From: a virus
Direction: 5' to 3' (one strand)
DNA: 64,000 bases
IMG/VR virus record: IMGVR_UViG_3300027736_000024
Coordinates: 1 to 64,000 of that record
Shown: one piece after another, positions 41,459 to 57,699 of the stretch
Numbering within the stretch: the first letter of the stretch is position 1
Layout: the number at the start of each line of letters is the position of its first letter
Position numbers and translations under genes: made by a program
The notes under the pieces: generated by a model
What the model was told of the DNA's origin: nothing
Database searches by the model: none
The model's input: the letters and a program-made list of their open reading frames with translations, nothing else

Positions 41459-41473
41459 TTTAAATAAAAGGTT

Positions 41474-42769
41474 ATGTATTTCATTATTGAAGATAAAGAA
41501 CAATTGGATAAACTAGAAATGTCAGATCAGGCATTTATCCAAGTAGTTACTTCTAATGATTATTATCATCCTAAACTTACTAGAGTAAGTCTTATTTACT
41601 ACAATAATTCAGAAAAAGGCTATATATTTGTTATTAATCATGAAGAAGGATTTTCACTAGATATTAAATTAGTAGAATCATTTCTTCAAAAGCATAATAA
41701 GATCTACTTACTAGATAGTAAATTACATTCTTATTTTTTAGATCTTTCAAATTCTATAGATGTTCAATTTATATGCTTAGATAAAAATAATGAATATAGT
41801 TCTTTTGAGTGTAATAGCAATGTACATAGAGACTTTTATATAAAGTATCCGGTTCTACCTACTATAAATGAAATTATTCCAATTTCTAAACATTATGAAA
41901 AATGTCAATGTCTATATCAATTAGTTAAAGACTATTTTGAATTAGAAATGGACATTGAATTGCAAAATAAATTAATTGATGCATATAAACATGTAGAAGA
42001 GACTGGAATAAAAATAGATCTTAATTGTTTTCATGATAAGTTTACATTCCAGCATAAGGAGTATTCTCTATTAGGAGATAAGATTTATTCTTATTATAAC
42101 TTATATAATTTAACTGCAAGACCAACTAACTCATTTAATGGAGTTAATTTTTTAGCAATACCTAAAGATCAAGATTTTAGAAAGTGTTTTATACCTCAAA
42201 ATGATTTTTTAGTTGAGTTTGATTTTGATGCGTATCATTTAAGACTTATTTCTGGATTAATTGGTTTTGAATGTCCCAAAGAGTCTATGCATGAATATCT
42301 AGGTAAATTATATTTTAATGTAGATAAATTAACTCCTGAGCAGTATAAAGAATCTAAGTCTATTACATTTAAGCAGCTTTATGGAGGTATAGAAAAACAA
42401 TATCAAAATATTGACTTCTTTAAATCTCTTAATGAATTTATAGAACAGGAATGGAAAAAATATAATGCACATAAAGCACTCATTTTACCTACAGGAAGGA
42501 TTCTAAGAAAGTTGCCTGATATGAATAAATTAAAGTTATTTAACTACATTGTTCAGAATCTAGAAACTAAAGAAAACATATTCAAGATATTAGAGATAAA
42601 CAAACTACTAACTAAAAAGAAAACAAAGCTTATTTTAATCACGTATGACTCTTTTCTGTTTGATTTTTCACAAGAGGATGGTAAAACCCTACTAAAAAAG
42701 ATCAAGACTATCTTAGAAGGGAAAAACATGCTTGTCAAGCACAAATACGGATCTAACTATGCTTTCTAG
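41474..42769 (+). CDS. Reduced, divergent family A DNA polymerase-like protein
   Basis: 431 residues. The last ~220 follow the family A order: motif 1 TARPTNSFNG (214-223; compare TGRLSS), motif A DFDAYHLR with Asp250, motif B KSITFKQLYG with Lys295, Phe299 and Tyr303 at canonical spacing, a helix with IVQN (359-362), and motif C YDS with Asp392. Both metal-binding Asp are kept. The N-terminal ~150 may be a worn exonuclease domain without a clear D-x-E. It is far shorter than normal PolA and carries a reduced thumb/finger. A full polymerase gene lies at 52710. Activity is unknown. Confidence 0.72.
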   Translation: MYFIIEDKEQLDKLEMSDQAFIQVVTSNDYYHPKLTRVSLIYYNNSEKGYIFVINHEEGFSLDIKLVESFLQKHNKIYLLDSKLHSYFLDLSNSIDVQFICLDKNNEYSSFECNSNVHRDFYIKYPVLPTINEIIPISKHYEKCQCLYQLVKDYFELEMDIELQNKLIDAYKHVEETGIKIDLNCFHDKFTFQHKEYSLLGDKIYSYYNLYNLTARPTNSFNGVNFLAIPKDQDFRKCFIPQNDFLVEFDFDAYHLRLISGLIGFECPKESMHEYLGKLYFNVDKLTPEQYKESKSITFKQLYGGIEKQYQNIDFFKSLNEFIEQEWKKYNAHKALILPTGRILRKLPDMNKLKLFNYIVQNLETKENIFKILEINKLLTKKKTKLILITYDSFLFDFSQEDGKTLLKKIKTILEGKNMLVKHKYGSNYAF

Positions 42770-42786: not shown

Positions 42787-42805
42787 TAACAGTAAACAAA
42801 AGGTT

Positions 42806-43234
42806 ATGGAGCAAATGATCGCAGCAGAAATTACATCAGACCAGCTTATGAATAAATTATTTTGTACTTTTTCGCCAAAAGATGGCTTAGAAGATACACT
42901 AAGAGAAATAAATAAAGAATACACAATTCTATATAAAAAGATATTTGTTTTATCCTCAATAGATTCAAATGAGTACTTATGTACTTATAATATTGAAATT
43001 GAAGGAGCACAAACTAAAATTCTTCCAAATACTATCTTAGTGCATAGAAAGAAAGAAACTAACACTTTATATACTATTAACGCCCTAAATACTTTAATTA
43101 AGAAATTAAATGGCGGCGTACTAGATACTTCTTTCCCAATCACTTGGGATGATTATAAAAACTCGGTTATCCTTACTCAAGGAGATGATCTTAAAAAGTT
43201 AAATACTGCTATTCATAAAATAGTTGCTATCTAA
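42806..43234 (+). CDS. Hypothetical protein upstream of SSB
   Basis: 142 residues, alpha/beta, with NTLYTINALNTLIKKLNGGV in the middle and ITWDDYKNSVILTQG near the end. Its place between the reduced polymerase and gp32 genes suggests a replication or transcription accessory (T4 places gp59 and gp33 near gp32), but no family link is visible. It has its own promoter-like box. Confidence 0.55.
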   Translation: MEQMIAAEITSDQLMNKLFCTFSPKDGLEDTLREINKEYTILYKKIFVLSSIDSNEYLCTYNIEIEGAQTKILPNTILVHRKKETNTLYTINALNTLIKKLNGGVLDTSFPITWDDYKNSVILTQGDDLKKLNTAIHKIVAI

Positions 43235-43295: not shown

Positions 43296-44105
43296 ATGGA
43301 CATTTCAGTGTTAAAATCAAGACTGTCGGCTCTACAAAATCCACGTGGAGGACAGAAGAAAGACCTCGCTCAAACCCTTTGGAGGCCTACCGTGGGCAAA
43401 CATTCAGTAAGGATTGTACCTTCAATGTTTGACAAACAGAACCCATTTAAAGAGGTTCTAATGCATTACGGGATCAATAACAGATCCATGATTAGTTTAT
43501 CAAATTTTGGCGAAAAAGATCCAATCGTTGAATTTGCACAAGGCTTAAGAAAGTCTAGTGAAAAAGACAATTGGCAAATGGCTAAAAAGCTCGAACCAAA
43601 AATGCGTATCTTTGTTCCTGTCATTGTGCGAGGAGAAGAAGATAAAGGCGTTAGGCTTTGGGAATTTGGTAAGCAAGTTTATATGGACTTGTTAAGTATC
43701 GCTGAAGATGAGGATGTAGGAGATTATACAGATCCTATTACAGGAAGAGATGTTACAGTTGAGACAGCTGGTAAAGAAACCACTGGATTAATGTATAATA
43801 CTTCTACTGTTAGGGTACGTACTAAATCTACTCCGCTATCTGATGATGCAGCTAAAGTAAAACTATGGTTAGAAACACAACCAGATCCGCTAACTCAATT
43901 CAAAAGGTATAGCTATGAAGAAATGAAAACAGCTCTTCTAGCACATCTAAATCCTGAAGAAGAAATTAAGCAACAAGCAGATCAAGTAGTTACAAAACCA
44001 ACAGGCGATCTGCCTTGGGAACAATCAGCGCCTAAACAAGGTTACAGTTTGAATACTACAAAAGCAAGTGTAGATTCAGAAATTGACAGCCTATTTGACA
44101 TCTAA
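43296..44105 (+). CDS. 32: Single-stranded DNA-binding protein, gp32-like
   Basis: 269 residues (T4 gp32 is 301). The N-terminal LKSRLSALQNPRGG, the core LWRPTVGKHSVRIVPSM, then PKMRIFVPVIVRG and VRLWEFGKQVY are typical of gp32 OB-fold proteins. The end is acidic (SEIDSLFDI), the tail used to contact replication partners. No cysteine occurs anywhere, so the zinc site of T4 gp32 is absent. It coats ssDNA during replication and recombination. A terminator follows immediately. Confidence 0.9.
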   Translation: MDISVLKSRLSALQNPRGGQKKDLAQTLWRPTVGKHSVRIVPSMFDKQNPFKEVLMHYGINNRSMISLSNFGEKDPIVEFAQGLRKSSEKDNWQMAKKLEPKMRIFVPVIVRGEEDKGVRLWEFGKQVYMDLLSIAEDEDVGDYTDPITGRDVTVETAGKETTGLMYNTSTVRVRTKSTPLSDDAAKVKLWLETQPDPLTQFKRYSYEEMKTALLAHLNPEEEIKQQADQVVTKPTGDLPWEQSAPKQGYSLNTTKASVDSEIDSLFDI

Positions 44106-44153: not shown

Positions 44154-45218
44154 ATGGGAAAATCAACATTAAATAGCACTATATCTAGTGCAATCAAAGG
44201 CACTAATAGTTTAGAACAATTTAAGAAAGGTAAAAATTTATCTTCTGGTGTAATATTCAAGCAGCCTTCTTGGATTCCACTATCACAAGCATTTCAAGAC
44301 ACACTACAAATTCCTGGTATTCCTATCGGGCATATTACTCTACTTCGTGGACACTCTGATACAGGTAAAACAACAGCTTTATTAGAGGCCGCAGTTTCTG
44401 CACAAAAGATGGGAATACTTCCTGTTTTTATTATTACAGAAATGAAATGGGATTGGAGCCATTCAAGAGCTATGGGATTTCAATATGAAGAAATAGCAGA
44501 TCCTGTAACAGGAGAAGTTGTGGATTATCAAGGATTCTTTTTATATATTGATAGAGAGAAACTTAATTGCGTAGAAGATGTATCAGCATTTATTGCAGAT
44601 ATTCTTGATGAACAAAAGAAAGGTACTTTACCTCATGATATTTGTTTCTTCTGGGATTCAGTAGGATCTATTCCTTGTAGAATGAGTATAGAAAAATCTA
44701 CAAATAATAATGAGTGGAATGCAGGAGCAATGTCTCAACAATTTGGTAATTTCATTAATCAAAGAATTGTATTATCTCGTAAAGCAAGTCAACCATATAC
44801 TAATACATTAGTAGCAGTAAATAAAATTTGGGTAGCTAAACCTGATAGTCCAATGTCGCAACCAACTATGAATAATAAAGGTGGCAATACGATGTATTTT
44901 GATTCATCACTTATTATTACATTTGGTAATATTGCTAAAGCAGGAACAAACAAAATCAAAGCTACTAAAAATGGCAAAGAGATTGAGTTTGCTAAAAGAA
45001 CTAGAATTAGCTGTGATAAAAATCACATAACAGGAGTTACCGCAGTAAATAAAGTGCTTATGACTGTTCATGGCTTTATTAAAGATGATAAAAAAGATCT
45101 TGAAGAATATAAAAAGAAGTATAGCGATGAATGGACAAAAGTCTTAGGATCTGGAACATTTGACGTAGTAGAAGAGGAAACAGAATTGTCACCAGATATA
45201 TTTGATCTACAAGATTAA
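44154..45218 (+). CDS. uvsX: RecA-like recombinase, UvsX-type
   Basis: 354 residues (T4 UvsX is 391). Walker A is GHSDTGKT (66-73), a Glu follows in IITEMKWDW (94-100), and Walker B is CFFWDSVG (164-171). The N-terminal helix and LSSGVIFKQPS match phage UvsX proteins. It forms filaments on ssDNA and drives strand exchange for recombination-dependent replication. It starts 18 bases after the SSB terminator and leads uvsX-FEN-helicase, each two or three bases apart. Confidence 0.88.
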   Translation: MGKSTLNSTISSAIKGTNSLEQFKKGKNLSSGVIFKQPSWIPLSQAFQDTLQIPGIPIGHITLLRGHSDTGKTTALLEAAVSAQKMGILPVFIITEMKWDWSHSRAMGFQYEEIADPVTGEVVDYQGFFLYIDREKLNCVEDVSAFIADILDEQKKGTLPHDICFFWDSVGSIPCRMSIEKSTNNNEWNAGAMSQQFGNFINQRIVLSRKASQPYTNTLVAVNKIWVAKPDSPMSQPTMNNKGGNTMYFDSSLIITFGNIAKAGTNKIKATKNGKEIEFAKRTRISCDKNHITGVTAVNKVLMTVHGFIKDDKKDLEEYKKKYSDEWTKVLGSGTFDVVEEETELSPDIFDLQD

Positions 45219-45220
45219 TA

Positions 45221-46234
45221 ATGAATAAAGAATACCAAAAAATATTCGAATCTTTAAAAGAGGAGAAAGTGGATGATAGTGTAAATAGTAGAGTCTTAAT
45301 CATAGACTCTCTAAACACTTTCTTAAGAGCTTTTACAGTAATAAGACACATTAATCCTCAAGGAAATCATATAGGAGGTCTAACAGGATTTTTACGATCC
45401 TTAGGATATGTTATTAATCTAGTTAGACCAACTAGAGTGATTTTAGTCTTTGATGGTCAAGGTGGATCTACAAATAAAAGATATATCTATCCTGAATATA
45501 AAGGAAATCGTGGAATTAATAGAGTAACAAATTGGGATGCATTTGAATCTCAAAAAGAAGAGTCAGAGTCTATTACAAATCAAATTGTAAGATTAATTTT
45601 TTATCTAAAACAACTTCCTGTAGATCTTATATCAATTGATAAAATTGAAGCCGATGATGTTATAGGATATATGGCAGGAAAATTAGATGGAGAAATTACA
45701 ATCATGTCTTCTGATAGAGATTTTTTACAGTTAGTTAATAAAAAAATATCTGTATATTCTCCTATTAAGAAAAAATTCTATGATAAAGATATGGTATTAA
45801 CTGAATATGGAGTTACTACAGATAATTTTTTAACACAAAAGATTTTATTAGGTGATTCTGGAGATAATGTACCTGGAGTAAGAGGACTAGGATCTAAAAC
45901 AATGCTTAAGTTATTTCCAGAGCTAGGATCAGAAAATGAAATATCATTAGATCAAATATTAGAAAAGTGTAAAGCCGGAGATAAAAAATTACACGAGTCA
46001 ATAGTTAATTACGAGTATCAACTAAGAATTAATAAAAGACTTATGGATTTAAGAGAACCTAATATCCCGGACGAAGCAAAAGAAGAGGTAGATTTTTTGA
46101 TACTTCATCCTAATAAAGAGCTTAATTCACAAGAATTTATTAATTTGTATAACGAAGATAATCTAGGCAATTCAATTGCTAATTTGCCAAATTGGTTATT
46201 TAAGCACTTTAATCAAATCGCAAAATATAAATAA
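45221..46234 (+). CDS. rnh: 5'-3' exonuclease / RNase H (FEN family)
   Basis: 337 residues (T4 RNase H is 305). Acidic metal ligands appear in order: Asp29 (LIIDSLN), Asp78 (VFDGQ), EADD (143-146), SSDRD (163-167) and GDSGDN (211-216), followed by the helix-three-turn-helix GVRGLGSKT (219-227). This is the complete FEN/PIN-like pattern. It removes RNA primers and flaps during lagging-strand synthesis. It begins three bases after uvsX. Confidence 0.9.
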   Translation: MNKEYQKIFESLKEEKVDDSVNSRVLIIDSLNTFLRAFTVIRHINPQGNHIGGLTGFLRSLGYVINLVRPTRVILVFDGQGGSTNKRYIYPEYKGNRGINRVTNWDAFESQKEESESITNQIVRLIFYLKQLPVDLISIDKIEADDVIGYMAGKLDGEITIMSSDRDFLQLVNKKISVYSPIKKKFYDKDMVLTEYGVTTDNFLTQKILLGDSGDNVPGVRGLGSKTMLKLFPELGSENEISLDQILEKCKAGDKKLHESIVNYEYQLRINKRLMDLREPNIPDEAKEEVDFLILHPNKELNSQEFINLYNEDNLGNSIANLPNWLFKHFNQIAKYK

Positions 46235-46237
46235 GTT

Positions 46238-47623
46238 ATGAGTTCACTAAATCAGTTGCAGCAGTACGGAATGAGTTTCCAAGTTAAGGTTTTATCAAGT
46301 TTATTAAAGCATAAAGAATTTCTTCAAAACATTAATGATATATTAGATACAGAGATGTTTGATAACCCAGCACATAAATGGATTGTTGGAGAAATTATAA
46401 GATACTATTACAAATATAATACTACGCCGTCCCTAGATTCTCTTCAAGTTGAAGTAAGAAAAATTGAAAATGAAGTTTTAAAGATTAGTGTAGTTGATCA
46501 ATTAAAAGAGGCTTATAAAGCCGCTAATGAAGATCGCGAATATGTAGAGCAAGAATTTTCAAATTTTTGTAGAAATCAACAACTTAAAAAAGCCATTCTT
46601 AATTCAGTAACTCTTTTAGAAAGAGGTCAATACGACGATATTAAGTATATGATGGATGCTGCTTTAAAAGCAGGCCAAGATAAGTCTATTGGGCATGAAT
46701 ATGAAAAAGATATTGAAACTAGATATCGTGAAGAAGAAAGAGCGGCAATACCAACAGCATGGCCAAACATTAATGAACTTTTAATGGGAGGACTTGGTAA
46801 AGGTGACCTAGGACTTATATTCGGTAATCCTGGAGGCGGTAAAAGTTGGATGTTAGTTAATCTAGGAGCTATGGCGGTACAGTCAGGATTTAATGTATGC
46901 CATTATACTTTAGAACTATCTGAGTACTACGTAGGCAAACGTTATGACGCGTTATTTACAGGTATAGATGTTCAACAAGTTCATAAACATCGAGGCTCTA
47001 TTGAGGAATCTGTGGTTAAATTAAAAGGCAAACTAATCATTAAAGAATTCCCTATGGGTAAAGCAACTATCCATACTATCGAATCACATATACAGAAGTG
47101 TAAAGATTTAGGATATCCTCCAGATCTAGTTATTATTGATTATGTTGATCTACTAAAAAGTAAAACAAAATCTATTGATCCAAAAGATGCAATTGATGAT
47201 GTATATACAGCAACTAAAGGAATGGCAAGAGAACTTAAAGTTCCAATTTGGACAGTTTCTCAGGTAAATAGGGCAGGTGCTAAAGATGATGTAATTGAAG
47301 GAGACAAAGCAGCTGGATCTTATAATAAAATGATGATTGCAGATTTTGCAATGTCTTTATCAAGAAAGAGACAAGATAAAGTAAATGGAACTGGCCGTAT
47401 GCACATTATGAAAAATAGATATGGAATGGATGGAATGACATATGCCGCCAAAATTAGTACCAATAATGGTAGTATAGAGATCAATTCAGATACGATGAAT
47501 GAAGATGAATTAAATATAGAAGGGCAAAATCAAAACTATAATCAGCCTAAAACGTTTAGTTCTTCATTAGACAGGGATGAAAAAGCATATTTGTCTAATA
47601 AATTTTTTGAGTTAGGACTATAA
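46238..47623 (+). CDS. 41: Replicative DNA helicase, DnaB/gp41-type
   Basis: 461 residues (T4 gp41 is 475). A helical N-terminal domain (about 1-150) is followed by the RecA-like motor: Walker A GNPGGGKS (196-203), YTLELSE with Glu226, Walker B VIIDYVDLL with Asp301, then WTVSQVNRAG (H3-like). It is the hexameric 5'-3' helicase of the fork. It starts in the GTT-ATG context three bases after the FEN gene. No primase gene is seen nearby in the window. Confidence 0.93.
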   Translation: MSSLNQLQQYGMSFQVKVLSSLLKHKEFLQNINDILDTEMFDNPAHKWIVGEIIRYYYKYNTTPSLDSLQVEVRKIENEVLKISVVDQLKEAYKAANEDREYVEQEFSNFCRNQQLKKAILNSVTLLERGQYDDIKYMMDAALKAGQDKSIGHEYEKDIETRYREEERAAIPTAWPNINELLMGGLGKGDLGLIFGNPGGGKSWMLVNLGAMAVQSGFNVCHYTLELSEYYVGKRYDALFTGIDVQQVHKHRGSIEESVVKLKGKLIIKEFPMGKATIHTIESHIQKCKDLGYPPDLVIIDYVDLLKSKTKSIDPKDAIDDVYTATKGMARELKVPIWTVSQVNRAGAKDDVIEGDKAAGSYNKMMIADFAMSLSRKRQDKVNGTGRMHIMKNRYGMDGMTYAAKISTNNGSIEINSDTMNEDELNIEGQNQNYNQPKTFSSSLDRDEKAYLSNKFFELGL

Positions 47624-52709: not shown

Positions 52710-55013
52710 ATGAATAAAAGTTATGTAACCGTAGACACAGTAGACAAACTAAAAAGTGTAATAGAACACATTAAAGCAAACGAAGTAATAGCGTTTGATA
52801 CTGAGACAAATAGTCTTAATCCACGTAAAGGCAAAATCATAGGCTTCTCAGTTTCAGGAGAAGAAGGTAAAGGCTATTATATGCCAACTATGATATTCAA
52901 AGATAATGAGCTTCAAGACGCTATGATTGAAGATAAACTTGCTCATGATCTTGCAAAGAAAACAATATCACTACTTATTGGAAAAAAATTAATTATGCAT
53001 AACGCATCTTTTGATACAAGATTCGTTAAGTGTTTTTATGGTATTAATTTACTTCCTAGTCTTTATGCAGATACGCTTTTATTAGTTCATACAGTAAAAG
53101 AAGAAGGCGCAGGTTATATGGCAGGTTCTCCATTCGGTCTTAAGGATATTGCTAAAATGATTCAAGCACATATCGGTTTAGATATTGAAAAATCTGCTAA
53201 TGAAGAACAAATAGCTCTTAAGACTTCTATTAAAGAAAATGGCGGATCAATTACAAGAGAGAGTTATGAAATATGGAAAGCTGATCTAGAACTACTTTCA
53301 GAATATGCTGCTGCAGATACTGACTTAACTTTAAGAGTTTATAATCATTTTATTAAGCAGCTTTACGCAGAAGGTCTAGAAAAGTTTTTCTTTGAAGATG
53401 AGGTTATGCCTTTATATAAAGAGGTTACAATTCCAATGGAGCAAGTAGGTGTTAAATTAGATCTTCCTTTAATTAATAAAGCAAAGACAGATATTGAAAT
53501 ACATTTAAAAGAATATTCTGATCTTGTAACGAAAGAGTTATTACAAAATTCAGATGTAAAAGCTTGGGTAGTTTATAAAGCTAAAGATGCATATCCAGCA
53601 AATAATAAAGGAACATTTGCTCAAGAGTTATGTAAAGAGTTTGATCTACCTTTAGAAAGGTCAGAAAAAACACAAAAATTTAATATAAATAAATCTGCAC
53701 TAACAAGACTTCCTGAATCTCAAATAAAACACTTTTTAATACATGGAGATCCTGCAGTACTAGATAAAGACCTATGTATTAAAATTAGTCTTCGTTTATG
53801 GAAAGAAGATAATGATGGGGCATTCTTTAATATACAGTCTAAAGATCAAATGGGTGAAATTGCTTTTGGAGTTCTTGGTATTAAACCAATGTCAAAGACT
53901 GCAAAAGGTAAACCTCAATTTGATGATGATATGGTCCAATCAATAGCAGAGAAATATAGCTGGGCAAAAAACCTTAGAATATATAATAGACTACTTAAAA
54001 TTAGATCTACTTACATAGAAAGATTTTTAACAGCTCAAGAAGATGGTAGATACTATTTCTATTATAAACAACATGGTACAGTATCTGGTAGATATGGTTC
54101 TGATGCTCAACAATTACCTAGACCTAAAGAGGAAGGCGATGATGATCCAATAGTTATTGAATATAATAATTTGATCCGAGCATTTTTTATACCTGATGTA
54201 CATAATATTTTTATCGATTGTGACTATGAATCTCTTGAGCCTCATACATTTGCTCACGTATCTGGTGATGAAGGCTTAAAAGATATTTTTAGAAATGGTT
54301 GGGATTTTTATTCTACAATTGCTATAAAAACAGAAAAACTAAATCAATATTCTCCAGATAAAAAAGCACCAAACTATCTACGTAAGTTAGATCCTAAACT
54401 AAGAAATAAAGCTAAAGCTTATTCATTAGGTATTCCTTATGGAATGGGTGCTTATGCTCTAGGTATGAATTTAGGTATTCCTACTAAAGAAGCAAAAAAA
54501 CTTGTTGAAGGTTATTTAAGTGGGTATCCGCAACTTAGAGAGTGGATGGATTCTTCTAAAGCTCAAGCAAAAGCTGTAGGATTTGTTAAGACTCAAGTTG
54601 GTCGTGTAAGACACTTACCTAAAGTAAAAGCGATCTATGATAAAATTGGAGACGATCTACTCGACTGGAATATCAAGAAAGAGATGGAGTATCAATATGG
54701 CGTAGATAAAGTAAAAAACCTCTCGAGAGACTATATAAATGGATTAAATAATAGTTGTAATGTTCAAATTCAAGGTCTTGCTGCATCTATTGTAAACAGA
54801 GCGGCATTAGCTATCAATAGAAAGTTTAAGGAACTAAATATACGTGGCTGGGTATGCGCACAGATCCATGACCAGTTAGTTATTGAAGTAGATCATGATA
54901 TCGCAGAAGATGCGGCCAAAATAGTCCAGGATTGCATGGAGAATACAACTAAACTTAGTATTGCTTTGAAAGCACCACCATCCCTAGCTAAAAACCTTCG
55001 TGATGGTCACTAA
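52710..55013 (+). CDS. polA: DNA polymerase I family (family A) with 3'-5' exonuclease
   Basis: 767 residues. Exonuclease sites: Asp30 and Glu32 (FDTET), Asp102 (NASFD), Tyr199/Asp203. Polymerase sites: GRYGSDAQQLP (460-470), motif A DCDYESLEP with Asp505, motif B RNKAKAYSLGIPYG with Lys569 and Tyr577, IQGLAA (687-692), motif C IHDQ with Asp721. The residue matching E. coli Phe762 is Leu573. No 5'-nuclease domain; that role is played by the FEN at 45221. It is the likely replicative polymerase, in place of the family B gp43 of T4. Confidence 0.93.
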   Translation: MNKSYVTVDTVDKLKSVIEHIKANEVIAFDTETNSLNPRKGKIIGFSVSGEEGKGYYMPTMIFKDNELQDAMIEDKLAHDLAKKTISLLIGKKLIMHNASFDTRFVKCFYGINLLPSLYADTLLLVHTVKEEGAGYMAGSPFGLKDIAKMIQAHIGLDIEKSANEEQIALKTSIKENGGSITRESYEIWKADLELLSEYAAADTDLTLRVYNHFIKQLYAEGLEKFFFEDEVMPLYKEVTIPMEQVGVKLDLPLINKAKTDIEIHLKEYSDLVTKELLQNSDVKAWVVYKAKDAYPANNKGTFAQELCKEFDLPLERSEKTQKFNINKSALTRLPESQIKHFLIHGDPAVLDKDLCIKISLRLWKEDNDGAFFNIQSKDQMGEIAFGVLGIKPMSKTAKGKPQFDDDMVQSIAEKYSWAKNLRIYNRLLKIRSTYIERFLTAQEDGRYYFYYKQHGTVSGRYGSDAQQLPRPKEEGDDDPIVIEYNNLIRAFFIPDVHNIFIDCDYESLEPHTFAHVSGDEGLKDIFRNGWDFYSTIAIKTEKLNQYSPDKKAPNYLRKLDPKLRNKAKAYSLGIPYGMGAYALGMNLGIPTKEAKKLVEGYLSGYPQLREWMDSSKAQAKAVGFVKTQVGRVRHLPKVKAIYDKIGDDLLDWNIKKEMEYQYGVDKVKNLSRDYINGLNNSCNVQIQGLAASIVNRAALAINRKFKELNIRGWVCAQIHDQLVIEVDHDIAEDAAKIVQDCMENTTKLSIALKAPPSLAKNLRDGH

Positions 55014-55136: not shown

Positions 55137-55547
55137 ATGGGAACATTAAGACCATTAGAGCTTGATCCATTCGACTTGCTCTGGAAAGACCTCTTCGAAA
55201 CAGTACCACACTTCTCTGCAATTACGCAGAAAATATCGCATCCAGTAGACATTTATGAAACAGAAAACGGCATCTCTTTTGAGGTTGCTGCAGTAGGCCT
55301 AGACAAAGAAGACATAGACATTCTAGTTGACGGAGACCAACTTCGTATTAAATACGAAAAAGTAAAACCAGTAAATCAAGAATCTGTTATTTATCGAGGA
55401 ATTAAAAGATCAGGATTTGATCTAAGTTGGAAAATCTCAGTTAAATTTGAAATTTCTAAATTAGAAGCAAAACTTGAAAAAGGACTTTTAATTTTAGATA
55501 TTCCTTACGCAGAATCTAAAAAACCAAAACAAATAGAAATTAAATAA
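55137..55547 (+). CDS. hsp20: Small heat-shock protein, Hsp20/alpha-crystallin family
   Basis: 136 residues. The alpha-crystallin domain spans about 36-125: HPVDIYETENGISFEVAAVG, DKEDIDILVDGDQL, and the closing GLLILDIPYAES (the usual A-x-x-x-n-GVL position). It ends with an I-x-I motif (IEIK), used for oligomer assembly. It holds unfolding proteins for refolding by chaperonins, which this phage also encodes at 55766 and 56074. T4-like cyanophages often carry Hsp20. Confidence 0.92.
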   Translation: MGTLRPLELDPFDLLWKDLFETVPHFSAITQKISHPVDIYETENGISFEVAAVGLDKEDIDILVDGDQLRIKYEKVKPVNQESVIYRGIKRSGFDLSWKISVKFEISKLEAKLEKGLLILDIPYAESKKPKQIEIK

Positions 55548-55570
55548 AGTAAGGCCTACCTACCTAAGTT

Positions 55571-55759
55571 ATGTTTTCAATCTGCAAAAATTTCATTAAA
55601 GTAAATGATGACTTATTTTTAGTCAAGCGAGTTCTATTCGAAGATCGGATAAAAGATCTTGAAGGAATTAAACAATGGCTTGGAGCAGATTCTGTTTATA
55701 AAAAAGATAACCTACTCTATTTTTGTATTAAAATAGATGAATTAGAAATTGTAAATTAA
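55571..55759 (+). CDS. Small hypothetical protein in chaperone operon
   Basis: 62 residues: MFSICKNFIKVNDDLFLVKR, then a helix (KDLEGIKQWLG) and a beta end. It starts in the GTT-ATG context and ends six bases before groES. No family recognised; perhaps co-expressed with the chaperones. Confidence 0.5.
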   Translation: MFSICKNFIKVNDDLFLVKRVLFEDRIKDLEGIKQWLGADSVYKKDNLLYFCIKIDELEIVN

Positions 55760-55765
55760 CAATAT

Positions 55766-56056
55766 ATGAATAAAATAACCCCGCTAAATGGTTTCATTTT
55801 GTTGAAACCAATAGAGACACAAGAAGAGACATTCGGTAATATCATTATTCCTGATCTAGGCAAAGAAAGACCTGAAATGGGAGAAGTAGTAGCAACCTCT
55901 GATATCTACAATTATCATACAGATAAATTTGTAGTATCCAATATAGAAGTAGGAGAGATTGCACTAATCCCTAAAATGGGATCTCAAAGAATTGTTCTTG
56001 ACGGACAAGACTATTTCATTTGCAAAGAAACGGATATTTTAGGAATTATTGAATAA
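55766..56056 (+). CDS. groES: GroES co-chaperonin
   Basis: 96 residues, full size for GroES. LNGFILLKPIETQEETFGN, then IIIPDLGKERPEMGEVVA, shows the first strand, the mobile loop (ETFGNIIIP, compare the I-x-I GroEL-binding tripeptide) and the roof. It ends with DYFICKETDILGIIE, a normal GroES ending. It is closer to bacterial GroES than to T4 gp31. It lies 17 bases before groEL, so a complete chaperonin system is present. Confidence 0.93.
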   Translation: MNKITPLNGFILLKPIETQEETFGNIIIPDLGKERPEMGEVVATSDIYNYHTDKFVVSNIEVGEIALIPKMGSQRIVLDGQDYFICKETDILGIIE

Positions 56057-56073
56057 AAAAATTAAATAATATT

Positions 56074-57699
56074 ATGAGTACAACAAAAAATGTTTTCGGA
56101 ACAGAACTTAAAGAAAAGTTATTGTCCGGTATAGAAAAATTAAATGCATCAGTATCATCAACACTAGGTCCAGGTGGACGCACTGTTTTAATTCGTGAAC
56201 AGAATGGAGAAGTCAAAGTTACAAAAGATGGTGTAACAGTTGCTAAAGCTTTTCATAAACTAGAAGATGATATTGAAGATCTTGGTGCACAACTTGTAAA
56301 ACAAGTAAGTATTAAATCTGCAAATGAAGCAGGTGATGGTACAACAACATCTACACTTATTGCAACTGAAATTGTAAAAGCTGGATTAAAAGAAATTCGC
56401 CAAGGTTATAATGCTGTTGAGATTAAAAATGAAATTGATAAAATTGTTTTAGAAGTAATTCAAGAAATTAAAGATAAAGCAATTGAGATTTCTTCTGAAG
56501 AACAAATTAAACAAGTAGCAACTATTTCAGGTAATAATGATCCAGAAGTTGGAAATTTAATTGCTACCGCAATTGATAAAGTTGGTCGTGAAGGTGTTGT
56601 AACTATTGAAGAATCTAAGACAGGAGAAACTTGTCTTGAAGTTGTTGAAGGTATGCAATTTGATCGTGGATATAAATCTCCATATTTTGTTACTAACAAT
56701 ACAACAATGCAAGCAGGTCTTGAAAATCCTTATATCTTATTGTATGATGGACGTATTACAACTGCACAAGAATTGCTTCAAGTACTTACAAAAGCAAATT
56801 CAGAAAATAAATCGCTATTAATTATTGCAGAAGATATTGGAGATGAAGCTCTAGCAACATTAATTGTAAATAAAATGCGTGGCATTATTCAAGTATGCGC
56901 AGTAAAAGCACCAGATTTTGGTGAAAGAAAAACCCTGATCTTAGAAGATATTGCTATCTTAACCGGAGGTCAAGTTGTTTCTAAAGATAAAGGACATAAG
57001 CTTGATAAATTAACCCCAGCTCAACTTACAGATTTCTTAGGCACTGCTAGAATGTCAACTATTACTAAAGAAGAAACTACTATTGTAGATGGTAAAGGAG
57101 ACGAAGCTAAAATTGAAGCTAGAGCAATTGAGATCAAAGATCAAATTGAAAAAGCTACTTCATTTTATGAGAAAGAAAAACTACAAGAAAGACTTGGTAA
57201 GTTGATTGGTGGTGTTGCAATTATTTCTGTAGGTGGTAATTCTGATATTGAAATTAAAGAAAAGAAAGACCGAGTAGAAGACGCACTATTTGCAACTAAA
57301 GCAGCGCTTGAAGACGGAGTAGTTCCAGGAGGAGGTACAGCATTGTATCAATCTTCTCTTAATCATAGAGCAGAGACAAGTGTTAATGTTGCAATTGCTA
57401 GGTCAATTTTATTAGATGCACTACAAGCTCCATTTAAGAAAATCCTTGATAATGCAGGAGTAAAAGATTGGTGGAATTATATTCCAAGTGAATTAGTCAA
57501 AAATAAAATTTATGATGCAAAGAATCATAAAATGGTAGATGCTTTTGAAGCTGGTATTATTGATCCTGCAAAAGTGGTTATCACAGCGCTTAAAAATGCT
57601 GCATCGGTAGCCGGAACAATTCTAACAACAGAAAGTGTTATTTTTGAAAAATTAAATAAAGATGAGAAACCAGCAGATCCTATGATGGGTATGATGTAA
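56074..57699 (+). CDS. groEL: GroEL chaperonin
   Basis: 541 residues, full GroEL length. [17 protein letters not shown] (24-40), [11 protein letters not shown] (50-60), the nucleotide loop GDGTTT (87-92), [24 protein letters not shown], and [13 protein letters not shown] are all present in order, and it ends with a Met/Gly tail (DPMMGMM). All three domains look intact. It probably folds phage capsid or polymerase proteins with the phage GroES. Phage-encoded GroEL is rare. A terminator follows. Confidence 0.96.

Follow-up and report, generated by a model that had tools for sequence, protein, structure and literature searches.

A predicted thumb-truncated family A DNA polymerase of the divPolA1 class and a linked 142-residue protein in a viral replication gene cluster

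The window, a stretch of 64,000 nucleotides, was taken from a 136-kb viral record in IMG/VR (IMGVR_UViG_3300027736_000024). On its + strand it carries, in order, a polymerase-like gene that we assign to the divPolA1 class (41474–42769), a gene for a 142-residue protein (42806–43234; the partner), and genes for a gp32-like single-strand DNA binding protein (SSB, 43296–44105; PF08804, 3e-12), a UvsX/RecA-like recombinase (44154–45218; PHROG 97, 2.9e-14), a 5′–3′ exonuclease of the FEN type, as in the N terminus of Pol I (45221–46234; PF02739, 4e-30), and a DnaB-type replicative helicase (46238–47623; PHROG 19, 7e-77). Downstream of divPolA1, 113 of 125 testable loci have the exonuclease and 93 of 105 have DnaB. 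A regular, full-length PolA is encoded on the same strand at 52710–55013 (PF00476, 6e-63, with a 3′–5′ exonuclease domain). A preliminary description of this DNA had proposed a reduced family A polymerase beside SSB and UvsX, additional to a full polymerase in the same genome, and both the gene order and the homology bear this out.

Taken alone, the 431-residue divPolA1 protein has no match in Pfam (the PF00476 gathering score is not reached) or in PHROGs because its sequence is too divergent, and NCBIfam gives a weak polymerase match (E = 0.0047). Its homologue gp001 of Flavobacterium phage immuto matches PF00476 at 4.6e-11 (42.7 bits, against a gathering score of 34.3), and another relative (L263) matches the DNA polymerase family PHROG 17 at 7.8e-13. 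When a profile of 117 divPolA1 sequences was used, Klenow was matched over the palm (E = 1.5e-7), followed by other Pol I structures. The AlphaFold2 model of the window protein, built on the 117-member alignment (pLDDT 94.6, pTM 0.90), has a palm fold, in keeping with the earlier proposal; in Foldseek it matches DNA polymerase I structures of the Klenow type (E from 3.5e-19, TMq about 0.6–0.74), with no RNA polymerase or primase among the best PDB matches listed. Pfam detects no zinc ribbon and TOPRIM, the domains of a DnaG-type primase, in the protein. Sequence and model together indicate that the open reading frame encodes a divergent family A polymerase belonging to divPolA1.

This class was described from 14 phages, immuto among them (Yutin et al., 2024, Virol J 21:200; PMC11348598); in the literature searched, no source other than this paper and the corresponding preprint uses the name. 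The published traits are a truncated thumb, an inactive exonuclease and conserved palm residues in a protein that is extra to a regular DNA polymerase of family A, B or C and has replication genes downstream, and chaperonins adjoin the regular enzyme in these phages (PMC11348598). The window protein is a direct homologue of immuto gp001 (tblastn, 36% identity over 99%, 1e-67; phmmer, 4.7e-83). Like the published members, it aligns with a truncated thumb, the palm catalytic residues kept and the exonuclease acids replaced; it too is extra to a regular polymerase, with GroEL/GroES near the latter and replication genes downstream. Measured against that class description it differs by phylogenetic distance only, and it adds a member to a class published in 2024 rather than defining a new one. 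Four pattern scans of IMG/VR each recovered at least about 400 to 560 divPolA1-encoding stretches, and the class is widespread in environmental viral contigs. The gene is under strong purifying selection, dN/dS being 0.031 in the comparison with a relative at 97% identity and 0.051 with one at 86%; these are the two closest comparisons, synonymous sites being near or at saturation in the remaining ones.

Residue conservation was scored on 246 unique divPolA1 sequences. T214, R216, P217, N225, D250, H255, K295, Y303 and G304 are invariant, F299 is present in 243 sequences, and N357, Q361 and D392 are each present in 244. The two sequences without D392 (L071 and L191) have also lost adjacent alignment columns and probably represent sequence breaks near their ends. 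In the window (+ strand), Arg216 of motif 1, equivalent by alignment to E. coli Arg668, is encoded at 42119–42121; motif A, from the catalytic Asp250 to His255 at the steric gate, at 42221–42238; motif B, K295-F299-Y303, at 42356–42382; and motif C, where Y391-D392-S393 replaces HDE and residue 393 is Ser or Ala in 244 of the 246, at 42644–42652. R216, D250, K295, F299, Y303, Q361 and D392 were confirmed in position and spacing; the preliminary description had correctly read the two Asp residues, K295, F299 and Y303, together with the YDS of motif C and the length of 431 residues. The Asp pair on which it relied is also kept in homologues, a conservation that is partly selected because the patterns of all four retrieval scans contained catalytic Asp residues.

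Alignment with E. coli Pol I indicates that R668, D705, K758, F762, Y766, N845, Q849 and D882 are kept, whereas Glu710 is replaced by His, Arg754 by Tyr in nearly all members (Y291, directly before motif B; Tyr in 236/246), Ala852 by Glu, and HDE by Y-D-S/A. The steric-gate Glu of canonical DNA-synthesizing family A enzymes is thus absent from divPolA1, with His in every sequence; Glu occupies this position in E. coli, in T7 and in the full PolA of the same genomes. One retrieval pattern of one scan (EFDFDAYH) included the gate His, and the patterns of the other three left it outside. The ribose 2′-OH is excluded by Glu710 (Glu658 in Bst), and the Bst mutant E658A takes rNMPs (PMC7200780; see also PMC13228545 on the gate). 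Since a His at the gate may itself block the 2′-OH, we do not deduce RNA synthesis from His255. Catalysis may be weak or altered, as neither the gate Glu nor the phosphate-binding Arg (E. coli 754) is present and motif C has lost its Glu. The divPolA1 section of Yutin et al. discusses neither the invariant gate His nor the linked 142-residue gene, and the universal His appears, as far as checked, to be new beyond the published class description.

Relative to the E. coli Klenow fragment, Bst and the apicoplast enzyme apPOL, the fold and the motif order (1, A, B, N-Q region, C) are alike. Unlike these enzymes, divPolA1 has almost no thumb, no exonuclease acids, and the Glu710 to His, Arg754 to Tyr and HDE to YD(S/A) replacements. 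The protein comprises an exonuclease-like N-domain (residues about 1–130) and the palm and fingers (about 137–431). By alignment, the N terminus appears to be a degenerate exonuclease-like domain and the large deletion to be the thumb, of which 7–25 residues align against 110 in E. coli. No conserved exonuclease DxE was found in the N-domain of 117 divPolA1 sequences, and the alignment is gapped at E. coli exonuclease positions 355, 357, 424 and 501. Earlier statements on this anatomy were partly right: no exonuclease site is readable, in that conserved acids are missing, but the domain itself persists in degenerate form; the thumb is indeed short, but the fingers are reduced only mildly (39–46 residues between motifs A and B, against 54). 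About 35 members have shorter N-domains, many of which are probably artefacts of an ATG-only start rule.

A search of related genomes for the pair of polymerases proposed earlier found a regular enzyme in 19 of 22 long divPolA1 records (full PolA in 10, PolB in 9); the three in which neither was found are contigs of 70–78 kb, and the 484-kb record LR756508 has an additional DnaE-type match. The full PolA keeps its exonuclease motifs (DTE, HNxxxD and YxxxD) and, in the same phages, Glu710 and Arg754, with HDQ as motif C and Leu at 762; in T7 polymerase a substitution of this Leu762 type cut specific activity by 97% (PMC13228545). In the window, Hsp20-like and GroES-like open reading frames and GroEL follow the regular PolA (55137–57699; GroES candidate at 55766–56056, GroEL at 56074–57699, + strand), and Immutovirus has the same PolA-GroES-GroEL order. 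The term paralogue, which implied descent from the PolA that the phage itself encodes, lacks support, since divPolA1 makes up a separate clade on a long branch and is also found together with PolB. A quick palm tree placed divPolA1 near T7 and E. coli and away from the phage PolA clade, a placement that is weak because the branches are long; derivation from the phage's own PolA was rejected.

Eight of the 22 records (G001, G003, G005, G010, G013, G017 [partial], Mel-JY01 and LR756508) have a DnaG-type primase related to that of immuto, a set that includes the longest related records. Neither the terminase nor the primase of immuto has a detectable relative in the 136-kb source record, which is therefore probably incomplete, so the absence of a primase from it is not evidence. 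When the window and immuto are compared across eight genes, identity is 56% for the full PolA and 36% for divPolA1, the lowest of the eight; the better conservation of the full enzyme argues that it is the main replicase.

The partner has no match in Pfam, PHROG or PDB sequences and no significant one in a fold search, and its AlphaFold2 model is a well-predicted α/β fold (pLDDT 89.7). Its family carries the motif HRKKxTNTLYTINALN and occurs almost exclusively in direct linkage with divPolA1. Of 188 loci offering at least 3 kb of sequence, 187 have this family downstream of divPolA1. In the reverse search, limited to the closest relatives and to partner-containing loci with at least 1.5 kb upstream, divPolA1 was found 0–83 nt upstream in 54 of 54, and in a phage collection clear matches to the two proteins fell in the same six records. 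This near-obligate partner gene, as far as checked, also appears new beyond the published class description. Among divPolA1 loci followed by 5 kb or more, the partner is missing from a single one (L281:10001–11047). Loci of the PolB group have an extra gene of 340–450 residues inserted between divPolA1 and the partner; it begins right at the divPolA1 stop (L212:11260–12486, L263:11326–12585 and similar PolB-carrying loci) and gave no usable family match.

The two genes also have a start context in common, AAAAGGTTATG, at 41466–41476 (+) for divPolA1 and 42798–42808 for the partner. Within the window, AAAGGTTATG occurs only at these two starts. In the window's clade, 70 of 73 loci have AGGTTATG or AGGTTGTG before divPolA1 and 21 of 40 have AGGTTATG before the partner; both arrangements are rare elsewhere. 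The repeated context may serve both genes as a translation or regulatory signal.

We propose that divPolA1 is an active, distributive, short-patch polymerase of the replication/recombination module, working without proofreading and thumb, with the full PolA or PolB responsible for bulk replication; to this reading we give about an even chance. The protein would retain the catalytic competence of a family A DNA polymerase but have dispensed with proofreading and with the thumb that grips the primer. Family A polymerases make many of their contacts to the backbone through the thumb (PMC9224347), so an enzyme with no exonuclease and almost no thumb would be expected to hold primer-template weakly and to incorporate few nucleotides each time it binds. 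As the 5′–3′ exonuclease, SSB and UvsX adjoin it, short-patch gap or flap synthesis is the simplest reading: divPolA1 would most likely fill gaps at Okazaki-fragment and UvsX recombination intermediates, and flaps would be cut by the neighboring exonuclease, an activity that in bacterial Pol I is part of the same chain, the two jobs of Pol I being split across two genes. The 142-residue protein is possibly an accessory subunit of divPolA1, and bulk replication would fall to the full PolA, or to PolB in relatives. We infer the activity, the gap-filling role and the function of the partner; gene order alone would fit gap filling, translesion synthesis and D-loop extension alike.

The strongest rival, which we nonetheless consider unlikely, is a translesion enzyme that would insert nucleotides opposite lesions in the course of recombination-dependent replication. 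The open active site expected from a missing proofreading site and little thumb would suit such an enzyme, as would the presence of UvsX among its neighbors and of another polymerase in the genome. However, the O-helix residues K295, F299 and Y303 are conserved as in accurate enzymes, and the position beside housekeeping replication genes is near universal, not optional. That divPolA1 is itself the main replicative polymerase, drawing processivity from partners and leaving the full PolA another role, is improbable. Such a reading arises because divPolA1 is the enzyme encoded within the core replication cluster, whereas the gene for the regular polymerase is set apart from it, by GroEL and nucleotide genes, and the function of the regular enzyme was called less obvious in the class description (Yutin et al., 2024; PMC11348598). 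Against it, divPolA1 is without proofreading and thumb and is the least conserved of the eight genes compared, and the exonuclease motifs of the full PolA are intact.

Equally improbable is a primase-like or RNA-handling role, in which the gate His would admit ribonucleotides and RNA or mixed primers would be made or extended beside the helicase and SSB. The loss of the gate Glu in all members, the Y-D-(S/A) of motif C and the location upstream of the SSB and helicase genes are consistent with it, but a bulky His may itself exclude the 2′-OH, the F762 and Y766 equivalents are kept, and the best fold matches listed are DNA polymerases I. The separate DnaG-type primase kept by the longest related records argues that divPolA1 is not a primase replacement; this disfavors the primase-like role suggested in the preliminary description, and a primase substitute was rejected as the main explanation. 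Still more speculative is a two-subunit thumbless polymerase, formed by divPolA1 and the 142-residue protein, whose sugar selection is altered by the invariant His, for example for mixed ribo/deoxy extension of DnaG primers as a phage counterpart of the eukaryotic Pol α step. A catalytically dead accessory or regulatory replisome subunit, also raised earlier, is very unlikely: substrate-contact residues are replaced (Y291 for Arg754, His255, S/A in motif C), but both metal-binding Asp residues and R216, K295, F299, Y303 and Q361 are essentially invariant in the 246 sequences, and dN/dS is 0.03–0.05.

The minimal second polymerase that a 2024 study recorded in a few phages is thus retained under strong selection alongside PolA or PolB. 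Why a phage keeps this thumbless enzyme is directly testable, the partner being a concrete protein to co-express and His255 a single residue to mutate. The divPolA2 proteins of barbaviruses and others are likewise second, divergent PolA-like proteins beside a regular polymerase and without a normal thumb; unlike divPolA1, they are described with a different N-terminal domain and a variable neighborhood (PMC11348598). In a rough alignment of one divPolA2 member (AUR84708), the gate position is occupied by Glu.
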